This document shows, piece after piece, positions 4,103-10,340 of a stretch of 36,441 nt of DNA (positions within the stretch are counted from its first letter, which is position 1; each line of letters starts with the position of its first letter). A program made the translations under genes and the position numbers. The notes under the pieces were generated by a model, which worked only from the letters and a program-made list of their open reading frames with translations, was not told the DNA's origin and ran no database searches. This DNA comes from Solirubrobacteraceae bacterium (lineage in GTDB: Bacteria > Actinomycetota > Thermoleophilia > Solirubrobacterales > Solirubrobacteraceae). The stretch spans positions 1 to 36,441 of the forward strand of contig JADGPO010000071.1 of NCBI GenBank assembly GCA_017882405.1. Reading direction: 5' to 3'.

Positions 4103-5020
4103 CTATTCGATACCCAAACGGTCCAGCACGCGCTCGTCTCCCCGCCAATGGCGGCGCACCCGGACCGACAGCTCGAGATGCACCTGGGTGCCCAGCTCGC
4201 GCTCGATCGTCCGCCGGGCGGCGACACCGATCGACTTGATCATCCGGCCACCGGCGCCGATCAGGATGCCCTTCTGGGATTCGGTCTCCGACAGCACCAC
4301 GGCCTCGATCCGCACCAGGTCGGGGCGCGGATACTGAATGTCCTCCACTTCGACCTCCACCGCGTGGGGCAGCTCCTCGCGGGTGCGGGCCAGCACCTGC
4401 TCTCTGACCAGCTCTGCAAGCCGTACCGACGGCTCCTGATCCGAGCGCTGGCCGGCGGAGAAGTACAGCGGCCCGGCGGGCAGCAGGGTCACCAGGTGCT
4501 CGACGAGGCGGGGCACGCCCGCGCCCGTGCGGGCGGACACGGGAAAAATCTCATCGGCCACCTCCAGGCTCGCGGCGTCGGCCAGCGTGGCCGCGATCCG
4601 CGCCTTCTCGGCCCGGTCGACCTTGTTGACGGCGATCGCCACCGGGACTTTCGCGGCGCGCAGCAGCGCGGCGATGAACCGGTCTCCCGGACCGACGCCC
4701 TGCTGAGCGTTGACGACCAGCAGGCAGCCGTCGGCATCGGCCAGTTCACGCTCCACCCGGCGCTGCATGCGCTCGGTGAGCGTGTCGCGGGGGCGCTGCA
4801 CGCCGGGCAGGTCGACCAGCACCAGCTGCCAGTCGGGCCCGGTCGCCACTCCGCGGATCGCCCGCCGGGTGGTCTGGGGCTTGTCGGAGACGATCGCCAC
4901 GTTCACGCCGACGATCGAGTTGGCCAGCGTGGACTTGCCCACGTTGGGGCGGCCCGCCAGGGCGACGAAGCCCGACCTGGTCACGGGCCCGGCCTTAGCC
5001 TTCGCGCTCAGCTGACCCAC
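4103..5020 (-). CDS. era: GTPase Era, 16S rRNA maturation factor
   Basis: Era is an essential GTPase that binds the 3' end of 16S rRNA and helps assemble the 30S subunit. The 305-residue protein shows G1 GRPNVGKST (residues 23-31), the switch II region DLPG and G4 NKVD. The C-terminal KH domain includes the conserved block GILIGAGGRMIKSIG, then VHLELSVRVRRHW. The length is typical. The GTG start overlaps the last 13 bases of ybeY, consistent with a coupled ybeY-era pair. Its stop lies directly against the response-regulator remnant. Confidence 0.97.
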   Translation of the reverse strand: MGQLSAKAKAGPVTRSGFVALAGRPNVGKSTLANSIVGVNVAIVSDKPQTTRRAIRGVATGPDWQLVLVDLPGVQRPRDTLTERMQRRVERELADADGCLLVVNAQQGVGPGDRFIAALLRAAKVPVAIAVNKVDRAEKARIAATLADAASLEVADEIFPVSARTGAGVPRLVEHLVTLLPAGPLYFSAGQRSDQEPSVRLAELVREQVLARTREELPHAVEVEVEDIQYPRPDLVRIEAVVLSETESQKGILIGAGGRMIKSIGVAARRTIERELGTQVHLELSVRVRRHWRGDERVLDRLGIE

Positions 5021-5403
5021 CGCATCAGCTCTGCCTGCAGCGCCAGCATCTCGCCGTGATCGGTTTCGTGGTCCATGCCGCTCAGATGCAGAGCACCATG
5101 CACCACCGCCTCGCGCAAGTCAACGGTGTGCTCCGGACAGATGATGATGTCTCCCAGCTCACGGGGGCCGGCGCTGGGAGCGTCCTCGTCGACGCCGAAG
5201 GACAGCACGTCGGTGGGCAGGTCGATCTGCCGGTACTCCCGGTTGAGCTCGCGGCTGCGTCCCGCGTCGACGAACTCGATCGCGACGTGGCCCTCGTCGA
5301 TCCCGGCGGAGGAGAGCGCCAGCGCGCACAGTTCCTCCAATTCCACCGCCGTTGGGCCGCTGTCGCTGGAGACCTCGATTCCGATCACCTCGACGTCGAG
5401 CAT
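5008..5403 (-). CDS. ybeY: Endoribonuclease YbeY (rRNA maturation)
   Basis: YbeY is a zinc-dependent single-strand endoribonuclease used in 16S rRNA 3' processing and ribosome quality control. The 131-residue protein ends with the family zinc motif VVHGALHLSGMDHE, in which His102, His106 and His112 are the ligands. The upstream LPTDVLSFG block is also conserved. It sits between phoH and era, the order commonly found in bacteria, with a 14-base gap to phoH and an overlap with era. I see nothing unusual in it. Confidence 0.95.
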   Translation of the reverse strand: MLDVEVIGIEVSSDSGPTAVELEELCALALSSAGIDEGHVAIEFVDAGRSRELNREYRQIDLPTDVLSFGVDEDAPSAGPRELGDIIICPEHTVDLREAVVHGALHLSGMDHETDHGEMLALQAELMRWVS

Positions 5404-5417
5404 CCGGCGCCCCCTCG

Positions 5418-7469
5418 CTAGGCGCGCTTACGGGGCCGCAGCTCGGGCGCCAGGCGTTGGGAGTGCTCGTCATAGGCGGCCACGATCCGCCGCACGAGCT
5501 TGTGGCGCACCACGTCCTCGTCACCGAAGCGCACGAACTGCACGTCCTCAACGTGATCGAGGACGTCGGCCACGGCCACCAGGCCGGACGCCTGCTCGCG
5601 CGGGAGGTCGATCTGGGTGATGTCGCCGGTCACCACCACCTTGGAGCTGAAGCCCAGGCGGGTAAGGAACATCTTCATCTGCTCGGGACTGGTGTTCTGA
5701 GCCTCGTCGAGGATGATGAAGCTGTCGTTGAGCGTGTTGTGGGTGACCAGGTAGTCGTCGGTCACGTAGAGCGAATCGGCGGCGGCGACCTGAATGCAGA
5801 CGGTCTCCATCTCGCCTGCCGGCTCGATGGCGTCGATGTAGCGCATCGGTCGCCCACCGCCATGGGTTTCATAAAGGCGTCGCTTGCGCTCCAGACGAAA
5901 CGGCTCGATCCCAGCCGGCAGGCGGATATCGATCACGAACGCATCGTGCCGATGCTCAACTGGTCGGCCGTCAGCGCGGCCCGGGCGGCGTCCATGGGCC
6001 TCACGCCGCCGCCAGTTCGCCACGCCGCCCAGCGAGCGAACGAGGTAGGCGACGTCGTCACGCAGCATCTCTGAGCACGTCGTGTACTGAATCCGGCACG
6101 TCCGTTCTCGCTGGGTCACGGGGCCGCCATCGCTGTCGAGCAGACCCTGGAGTACGGCGATTCGGACTGCGGCGGAGTTGTGGAGGTACAGCTCTGGGAC
6201 GAACTTGCTGTGCGATCTCGTCCCCGCCAGCCCAAGTTCCCGGAGTGCGGCGGTGACCGGGTTGGCGACGATTACGCCACCACGATGGCCGTCGACATGC
6301 CGGAGGACGTAGTCGATGCCGCCCTTCGGTTGAAGTTCGATACCGGCCAGCGAGCTCTCGAGGGCGCGGCCAAGCTCCAGGTCCGCGGTGGCGAAAGTCG
6401 GCGTCGTCGAGGTCGTGAGGCAGCCGTCACCGAGCAGAAGGCCCAGCCCGTACGGATCGATCGGAACCTCTGCCGCCGGGAGCTCGGCGGGGGCCGAGAG
6501 CAGCGGCAGCTCGAACCGGTGCTGGTGGAAGGAGCGGAGCCGGCCGATCATCTCCTGCGTCTCGAGCACGCGCCCGGGCTTGCCCCGACGGCGATCGGAG
6601 GCGGTGAACACTTGCCAGAGGTGCTCGGAGCAGCACAGCGTCGAGGCCCCGTCCTGGGTCCGCAGCCGGTAGACGGGCTTGCGGCCCTGCGGATATACGC
6701 CAATCACCGGCGTCGGCCGTCCGTCGGAGCCGATCACCAGGTCTCCGACGCGCAGATTCCCGATCGGTCGAAAGCCGGACGGGGTGAGCACCCCGCTCGA
6801 CAGGGGTTGAGCTCTGCCTCTCATAAAAGCCAGCGGCGCGACCTCGATCACGCCGCGCTCCAGGTGCTGGGAGACGCGCTCGGGCTCCAGCATGTCGTGC
6901 AAAGCGTCGAACAGGGGGCGCAGGTAGGGGTCGACCTTGGCCATCAGGTCCCCGGGGAGGAAGCCCAGGCGCTCGCCGGCCTCGACCGCCGGGCGCGTGA
7001 GGATGATCCGGTTGACCTCGCGCCGGCTGAGCGCCGCCGCGGCCAGCGCCACCGCCAAAAACGTCTTGCCGGTGCCGGCCGGCCCGATCCCGAACGTGAT
7101 CGTGTTGTTGCGGATCGAGTCGACGTAGCGCTTCTGGTTGACGGTCTTGGGAGCGACCTTGGTGGCGCGATGGCGCCAGACGACGTCCTCCAGGATCTCC
7201 GACGGCGATTCGTGCTCGTCCAGCGCCCGGGTCACGGCCTCGACCGTCCCGGGGACGATCTCGTGTCCCTGGCTGATGAGATCCGACAGCTCCCGCACCA
7301 CCGCGGCGCCGGCGTCGACCGCCGCGGCGTCGCCCTCCAGCGTGAGCATGTTGCCGCGCAGGAACACGTCGCAATCCAGATGCCCGTCCAGGGTGCGCAG
7401 GATCGCGTCCTGACTGCCGGCCAGCTCGGCCGCAACCGCGTTATCCAGCTCGATGGTCCGTTTAGCCAC
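5418..7469 (-). CDS. phoH: PhoH family ATPase, interrupted in frame by an intein
   Basis: The 683-residue precursor is a PhoH-like P-loop ATPase split by an intein. The N-extein is residues 1-219 and includes an N-terminal RNA-binding-type region and Walker A GPAGTGKT (129-136). The C-extein is residues 579-683, starting at TLNDSF and containing Walker [10 protein letters not shown], then [10 protein letters not shown]. Joining the two gives the normal [18 protein letters not shown] sequence and a PhoH of about 324 residues. ATP hydrolysis should therefore depend on splicing, because Walker A and B lie on opposite sides. The exact role of PhoH is unsettled; ybeY and era next door point to RNA metabolism. 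The GTG start overlaps the yqeY stop by one base. Confidence 0.96.
5736..6812 (-). mobile_element. Class 3-type intein with LAGLIDADG homing endonuclease in PhoH
   Basis: The insertion covers precursor residues 220-578 (359 residues). It begins with Ala rather than Cys or Ser ([13 protein letters not shown]), continues with the block A pattern [12 protein letters not shown], and ends in VTHN before Thr579. Class 3 inteins lack residue-1 Cys/Ser and use a Trp-Cys-Thr motif. Here the candidates are Trp285 after the block B His (SEHLW), Cys558 at block F (VCIQV) and Thr576 just before the terminal His-Asn. Two LAGLIDADG-like helices, GLGLLLGDG (341-349) and [10 protein letters not shown] (439-448), mark a homing endonuclease with both acidic residues intact. 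The reading frame is open throughout, so both splicing and endonuclease could be active. Codons such as TTT, AAT, ATT, GTA, TAT and CAA near its start are scarce in neighbouring genes and suggest transfer. Confidence 0.9.
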
Positions 7470-9179: not shown

Positions 9180-10340
9180 CTAGCCGCCGAAGGCGCGCCT
9201 GAGCTTGCCCAGCACGCCCTCGTCGGTGCGCAGATTGTGCTCGGTGAGGCTGTCGGACAGCTGCTCGAGCAACTCACGCTGCTCGCGCTTGAGGTGGCGC
9301 GGGATGACGACGTTGACGACCACCCGCAGATCGCCGCGCCGGCGACCTCGCAGCCCGGGCATCCCCTTGCCCCGGATCGTCAGCGTCTCGTTGGGCTGGG
9401 TCCCCGCGGGGATCTCGAGCTCGGTCTCGCCCTCGATCGTCGGCACCTGCACGGTCGTGCCCAGCGCCGCCAAGGGGGCGGCCACGTCGACGACCGTCAC
9501 GAGGTCGTCCTGGCTGCGCACGAAGCGGGGGTCCTCGCGCACGCGGATCTGGACGTACAGGTCGCCCGGCGCTCCGCCGTGCTCGCCGGCATGGCCGCGC
9601 CCGGTGATACGAATCCGCTGGCCGTCGTCGATCCCGGCGGGCACGTCGACCGACACCTTGACGCGCTGCACCTTGCGCCCGCGGCCCCCGCACTCGTGGC
9701 ACGGGTCCTGGGCCACCCTGCCGTCGCCGCCGCACTGATCGCAGGCGGCAGCCCGCACGACCTGGCCGAACGGAGTGCGCGAGACGGCACGCAGCTGGCC
9801 GGTTCCGCCGCACTTGGGACACGTCTCGATCGGGGTGCCGGGCTCGGCGCCGTTGCCGCGACAGTGCTCGCAGCGGGTCACCGCGTCGTAGGCGACCTCC
9901 ACCGCGGCGCCCGTGGCCGCCTGCTGCAACCCTATTTCGGCACCCACGGAGACGTCGCCGCCCTGGGCGGGTCCGCCCGCCGCGCCGCCGCCGAAGATGT
10001 TGCCGAAGCCGCCGGCGCGGGCGGGACCGGTTCCCCCGAAGAACGCCTCGAAGATGTCGGCCACCGACCCGAAGCCCTCGAAGTTGGGGGAGTAGCCGCC
10101 GGTGCGCAGGCCCTCGTGGCCGTAGCGGTCATAGGTTGCGCGCCGGTCGGAGTCCGACAGCACCTCGTAGGCCTCGGCGGCCTCCTTGAACTTGCTCTCG
10201 GCGTCGGGATCGTGGCGGTTGACGTCGGGGTGAAGCTCGCGGGCGAGCTTGCGAAACGCCTTCTTGATGTCGGCGTCGCCGGCGTCCCGGGAGACACCGA
10301 GCACCTCGTAGTAGTCGCGGGGCATCTGTGAGGCGCTCAT
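9180..10340 (-). CDS. dnaJ: Chaperone DnaJ
   Basis: DnaJ (Hsp40) delivers unfolded proteins to DnaK and stimulates its ATPase. All parts of a type I DnaJ are present in 386 residues. The J domain has HPD at 37-39, and a Gly/Phe-rich linker spans about 85-125. Four zinc-binding CxxCxGxG repeats lie at CEHC 157, CPKC 174, CDQC 200 and CHEC 214, followed by the C-terminal substrate-binding domains. The ATG overlaps the hrcA stop by four bases, so the repressor and chaperone are coupled. dnaK and grpE are not in the window; this may be the second, HrcA-linked DnaJ common in actinobacteria. Confidence 0.97.

Follow-up and report, generated by a model that had tools for sequence, protein, structure and literature searches.

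Class 3 inteins start splicing with a cysteine of block F and not with residue 1 (PMC3196547, PMC6195587, PMC7664689), and a phage origin has been proposed for them (PMC3196547). In mycobacteria, class 3 inteins are described for two proteins, DnaB and PhoH (PMC6195587). The PhoH inteins of M. fortuitum (OBK00716) and M. xenopi (EID13626) are presented as class 3 with a WCT triplet in the legend to Fig. 6a of PMC6195587, and a PhoH intein of M. smegmatis is named in PMC7360933. Thus, class 3 PhoH inteins are already known, which answers in the affirmative, for mycobacteria, the question of an earlier sequence-based account of this locus (the preliminary description) whether such PhoH inteins had been catalogued. 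Among other phage papers mentioning both an intein and PhoH, the intein is placed in the terminase in PMC7156551, PMC3853055 and PMC3868846, and the mention of phoH in PMC3653736 comes with no intein in that gene. A literature search, run mostly outside subscription journals, turned up no publication dealing with Thermoleophilia PhoH inteins or with phage copies of class 3 at the RGR/T site (the slash marks the insertion point).

The window, i.e. the whole 36,441-nucleotide stretch of Solirubrobacteraceae DNA analyzed here, contains a phoH gene whose frame, read from 7469 to 5418 on the minus strand, codes for 683 residues with zero internal stops (Table 1). An insert, AQPL...YLVTHN, lies between MRGR and TLND of PhoH, downstream of Walker A and ahead of the Walker B region. 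The open frame, the position of the insert inside PhoH and between the two Walker motifs, its initial Ala and its Thr-His-Asn end before Thr had all been proposed in the preliminary description and are borne out by the translation; the calculated masses of the intein (39.3 kDa) and of the ligated extein (35.7 kDa; precursor, 75.0 kDa) agree with the approximately 39 and 35 kDa given there. A Pfam search assigned PF02562 (PhoH, E 1.7e-89) to two stretches of the precursor and LAGLIDADG_3 (PF14528, E 5.4e-8) to the part between them. With a PhoH domain, Walker A on one extein and Walker B on the other, the host protein belongs to the PhoH family. The NCBIfam match list contained exception models for intein-bearing GyrA and Tes and none for PhoH. 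The neighborhood comprises HrcA, a DnaJ-like frame (9180-10340, assigned by eye from the ORF list), PrmA, YqeY, PhoH, YbeY, an Era-like GTPase with KH domain, HisI/HisE and an anthranilate-synthase-like gene; as this is a housekeeping cluster, the PhoH encoded here is considered cellular. Our main reading, to which we assign a probability of roughly 0.93, is that the phoH gene of the window is chromosomal and harbors a full-length class 3 intein together with its LAGLIDADG homing endonuclease. The intein exemplifies an established type well and does not represent a new one, because this insert is common at the identical position among actinobacteria and is present there in two phage contigs, too. 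The mycobacterial PhoH inteins, compared by description only, share the extein family and the WCT class 3 signature with the window copy; their hosts belong to another class of Actinomycetota.

Table 1. Features of the intein-containing phoH gene in the window, and phage contigs with an insert at the same site.
Feature	Position or length	Strand	Basis and conservation
phoH precursor gene	5418..7469	minus	683 codons, GTG start; ORF and PF02562, E 1.7e-89
N-extein of PhoH	6813..7469	minus	residues 1-219, MRGR end; intein-free relatives match up to residue 219/220
Intein	5736..6812	minus	359 residues, precursor 220-578, A1 ... THN359
C-extein of PhoH	5418..5735	minus	residues 579-683, Thr+1 start TLND; intein-free relatives resume at 579 in 22/24 loci
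Walker A GPAGTGKT of PhoH	7062..7085	minus	precursor residues 129-136
ILDEAQN (Walker B region) of PhoH	5694..5714	minus	precursor residues 586-592; seven residues from splice junction
Intein residue 1, Ala, no class 1 nucleophile	6810..6812	minus	A 199, S 35, C 5, gap 1 among 240 matches listed
Cys61, candidate extra thiol by the active site	6630..6632	minus	three residues before block B His, place of Thr in TxxH motif
Block B His64	6621..6623	minus	240/240 matches listed, 43/43 PhoH-site inteins
Trp66 of WCT motif (B:12), precursor W285	6615..6617	minus	240/240 matches listed, 43/43 PhoH-site inteins
LAGLIDADG motif 1 GLLLGDG, acid D129	6423..6443	minus	precursor D348, motif 343-349; D129 in 40/43 PhoH-site inteins, 239/240 matches listed
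LAGLIDADG motif 2 GLLDSDG, acid D228	6126..6146	minus	precursor D447, motif 442-448; D228 in 39/43 PhoH-site inteins, 239/240 matches listed; PF14528
Cys339 of WCT motif (F:4), precursor C558, predicted initiating nucleophile	5796..5798	minus	240/240 matches listed, 43/43 PhoH-site inteins
Thr357-His358-Asn359: T of WCT (G:5, precursor T576), penultimate His, terminal Asn	5736..5744	minus	240/240 matches listed each
Thr+1 of C-extein, predicted acceptor nucleophile	5733..5735	minus	T 230, S 10 among 240 matches listed
Phage contig 1 (L100, L181, L198)	100,340 bases		intein identity to window 58.9%
Phage contig 2 (L180, L199)	65,267 bases		intein identity to window 38.8%

The residues named in the preliminary description as the candidate WCT triplet (Trp285, Cys558 and Thr576 of the precursor) are present as intein residues 66, 339 and 357, at the class 3 positions B:12, F:4 and G:5, and residue 1 is Ala, not Cys, Ser or Thr. 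W66, C339, T357, H358 and N359 were invariant in all 240 proteins among the matches listed, and the same five residues were found in every one of 43 PhoH-site inteins (the window copy, 40 cellular and 2 phage copies, after removal of the duplicates L026, L030 and L071 and of the broken L025). W66, C339 and T357 were also present in 45 of 45 first-extracted inteins, some of which come from phages and plasmids and lie in other genes. Residue 1 varied in the PhoH-site set (A 36, S 6, C 1); at least 28 changes were counted on a 241-row FastTree (the 240 listed proteins and the window, column 1 left out), and 4 were needed on the 43-row tree (column 1 included). Invariant WCT and HN residues combined with a variable residue 1 fit class 3, and the assignment already made in the preliminary description is well supported at the sequence level. 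Taken alone, 40 of the listed relatives would not count as lacking a nucleophile at residue 1, which is Ser in 35 and Cys in 5. In 2011, Tori and Perler reportedly included inteins that combine WCT with Ser1 or Cys1 in their work on class 3. The window intein is ordinary as such; what makes it useful is its large number of natural relatives, since the 240 listed ones vary among Ala, Ser and Cys at residue 1 and all retain the block F Cys, natural variation that supports the class 3 rule.

The 40 listed relatives with Ser or Cys at residue 1 could also point to an intein of class 1 (or class 2) in which Trp, Cys and Thr occur incidentally and splicing takes another route, e.g. direct attack by Thr+1. 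A search of solved structures is in line with this alternative in that the top match was gp41-1, a class 1 intein (6riz, E 2.5e-13; 6qaz, E 1e-10). Its matches to PI-SceI (E 1.2e-6) and to class 3 DnaB inteins with E values of 6.5e-6 to 9.9e-6 (6rix and 6riy, which we take to be M. chimaera DnaB1, and 6bs8, presumably M. smegmatis DnaBi1) speak for the main reading. The class 3 DnaB inteins resemble the window copy in having WCT and THN and no nucleophile at residue 1; DnaBi1 differs in its location in the P-loop of DnaB and in being described without an endonuclease (PMC6195587). gp41-1 likewise has no endonuclease, unlike the window intein; its block B and THN are reported to resemble class 3 (PMC12245125), and we interpret 6riz, with W and C among its aligned letters, as the WCT-grafted variant described in PMC7664689. 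In a block-wise tree of only 40 columns, the 10 class 1 rows (those usable from 30 loci) fell on one side (92/89, not starred), and class 1 and PhoH inteins as one group were not rejected on this small tree (p 0.149). Such an incidental triplet is nevertheless very improbable, given that residue 1 changes at least 28 times and Cys339 never in the same rows, the opposite of the class 1 constraint, and given the presence of the triplet in all 45 first-extracted inteins. A first class 1/class 3 tree placed 3 of the 10 class 1 rows within class 3 and gave p 0.308 for class 1 plus PhoH; its block B was poorly aligned, and it was set aside because this block fell in gaps in 7 of the 10 class 1 rows.

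For the class 3 intein of the window, the published class 3 mechanism predicts that Cys339 attacks the Arg219-Ala1 bond and that the N-extein then passes to Thr+1; Asn359 would cyclize and the exteins would be joined into a 324-residue PhoH. Splicing, its dependence on Cys558 and the inactivity of PhoH before splicing are expected by analogy with other inteins.

Both LAGLIDADG motifs keep their acidic residues (D348 and D447), as claimed in the preliminary description. Two motifs with acids, the PF14528 match over the second motif region and the PI-SceI match predict a LAGLIDADG homing endonuclease. In the set of 43 PhoH-site inteins, one or both endonuclease acids were missing in 5 (L016, L017, L023, L031, L081), and 6 were shorter than 350 residues (L017, L019, L023, L081, L082, L100; 314-342 residues); acid loss and shortening with the splicing residues kept read as the usual decay of homing endonucleases. 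The 5 relatives lacking acids, together with one copy that reads in two frames (L025), could suggest that the window intein is itself decayed and no longer splices, in which case the gene product would be an inactive PhoH. In the window copy, however, no splicing residue and neither endonuclease acid is missing, and a deposited sequence (P0001) is 99% identical to it. In a comparison with the nearest relative L001 (one pair only), dN/dS was 0.10 in the splicing part and 0.117 in the endonuclease part at synonymous differences of 0.56-0.59. With dN/dS this low in both halves (approximately 0.11), the window copy looks maintained, and we give decay hardly any credence.

The copy in two frames is the PhoH intein of Nocardiopsis sp. 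CNR-923 (L025, around 5001-6025); its frame is broken near intein residue 58, by decay or by a sequencing error.

Of the 7,994 candidates scored in a search with the intein part (region 221-579, one residue off the intein at 220-578), 5,622 proteins had E <= 1e-3; the best 120 of the 5,622 all had a PhoH domain and were 76-99% identical over the intein. With an Amycolatopsis copy as query, 5,704 of 7,993 candidates were obtained, the best 120 again all with a PhoH domain. Where the source gave a name, the listed relatives almost always bore a plain PhoH name and never that of an intein, and the nearest named ones among the matches listed were from Solirubrobacterales, an order of Thermoleophilia. 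A genome scan yielded 25 loci: 23 PhoH-site inteins whose frame is unbroken, L024 in another gene, and L025 with a broken frame. In the Thermoleophilia-type class of G001, 147 of 149 genomes gave a match and at least 6 of the 149 carry the PhoH intein, namely G001, the center genome chosen for having it, and 5 others; in the Actinomycetes class of G002 (Micromonospora haikouensis), the respective figures were 115 of 116 and at least 13 of 116, center included. The occurrence of the PhoH intein across these genomes is sporadic. The intein-free phoH genes were single uninterrupted, seamless frames in 24 of 24 loci examined; their alignment resumed at query residue 579 in all but L039 and L043, where the local alignment overruns. 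The endonuclease would cut such intein-free phoH alleles, a target deduced from the insertion site only, and the intein DNA would be copied in by repair.

The third-position G+C content was 0.81 in the intein versus 0.92 in both exteins, and most of the 42 relatives show a drop as well. Immediately ahead of the intein (6813-6830, minus strand), the six codons GCT TTT ATG AGA GGC AGA include the only two AGA codons among the 29 Arg codons of the PhoH extein; the eight neighbor genes have 3 AGA in 209 Arg codons. At the equivalent position L001 has GCG TTC ATG CGC GGG CGC, and the 21 bases on the other side of the intein are identical. The AGA-rich codons are possibly a co-conversion scar of homing.

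The sporadic occurrence could result either from homing between classes or from inheritance of the intein with PhoH from an early actinobacterial ancestor followed by frequent loss. Within the class of the window, all 7 comparisons gave a lower similarity to the window copy for the intein than for the extein core (62.7-81.1% versus 75.5-91.8% identity), whereas between Actinomycetes and the window the intein was about as similar as the extein core (53.9-69.2% for the intein, 63.6-67.7% for the extein core, the intein being higher in 18 of 33). The branch separating the 33 Actinomycetes rows had a length of 1.85 in the extein tree, which contains two very long phage branches, versus 0.036 for the branch to the class of the window in the intein tree. 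From these similarities and branch lengths, transfer between classes is favored. Vertical descent is in agreement with the grouping of the 8 rows of the window's class on one side of the intein tree (94/87) and with an AU test in which the 33 Actinomycetes inteins as one group (the vertical topology) were not rejected (p 0.142). The intein is, on the other hand, rare, its site is seamless where it is absent, and phages carry it; we therefore consider vertical descent with loss unlikely, though a good deal less so than the alternatives weighed above.

In tblastn searches with the intein, 462 of the 50,697 phage records contained relatives, none of which reached 60% identity, as did 26 of the 72,556 plasmid records, the best of which (L069) is a chromosome-sized Nonomuraea record. 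For the whole precursor, none of the 50,697 named phage records had a match covering 80% at one place, and 2,894 of them had partial matches. Full-length phage inteins of class 3 type, located in terminases, DnaB and helicases of the SNF2-like kind (e.g. in phages Phrappuccino, PhiPA3 and LucasX), share WCT and THN with the window copy at 36-42% whole-intein identity; the three named differ in sitting after GK and before C or T, not at the PhoH MRGR/T site. A scan of viral contigs confirmed 124 relatives, of which 80 were kept; many of those examined are preceded by GK and followed by T, S or C, which resembles a Walker A site. Scanning the viral contigs by the C-junction gave 13 stretches, with a PhoH intein only in L181. 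Two phage contigs have an insert in PhoH at the same MRGR/T site as the window (Table 1). PHROG matches were obtained for 3 of 10 tested proteins of the 100,340-base contig (exonuclease, UvsX-like recombinase, DnaB-like helicase) and for 2 of 10 of the 65,267-base contig (virion structural protein and, weakly, portal protein, E 1.2e-6). A search of both contigs for terminase (PF03354) found none, so their phage nature rests on the IMG/VR listing and the other genes. Phages with PhoH genes could carry the intein between lineages, and the two same-site copies provide specific candidate cases in which a phage may have brought a class 3 intein to a chromosomal gene.

The Campylobacter phage vB_CcoM-IBB_35 has a PhoH-family intein that was reported in 2012 as unseen before in that gene (PMC3322345). 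In this PhoH-family protein (L232, 15971-17890), the intein is short, starts with Cys1, ends in SKN/C and is inserted at VDE/CQN, with the RGR/T site empty; by its position it occupies another site and by its first residue it is not class 3. Its site lies 11 residues downstream of RGR/T, so that a single conserved PhoH segment has two positions used by inteins.

Position 61 of the window intein is Cys, as in 240 of 240 matches listed; in the wider set of 43, it is C in 24, S in 17 and T in 2, and a Cys at position 60 or 61 occurs in 34. The corresponding residue of DnaBi1 is Asp62 in a DxxH motif, and splicing of DnaBi1 is reported to be blocked by a disulfide to the catalytic Cys (PMC6195587). 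That Cys61 might bring about the same disulfide block in the window intein is a guess. A wider proposal would make the PhoH-site intein a redox- or metal-gated switch, with Cys61 beside Cys339 forming a disulfide or binding zinc, that pauses PhoH maturation under stress and is shuttled between phage and host phoH with the same-site phage copies as reservoir; we regard it as doubtful.

Related inteins were also seen at other sites. The Caudovirales phage GX15bay has one with the end THN/TNFIV at a different-looking site of a gene annotated as 'PhoH' (L062). Streptomyces aureus and two other genomes carry a related intein of class 3 type at LLQGEVGSGK/T (L024, L083, L087), presumably the Walker A motif of a RecG-type helicase. 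On a plasmid of Miltoncostaea oceani (L065, 2001-3014, the same stretch as L056), a related intein is inserted at GK/T of an annotated T2SS/T4SS-type ATPase; in the genome of this organism (G125), the PhoH match stops at the intein site, like that of intein-free genes.
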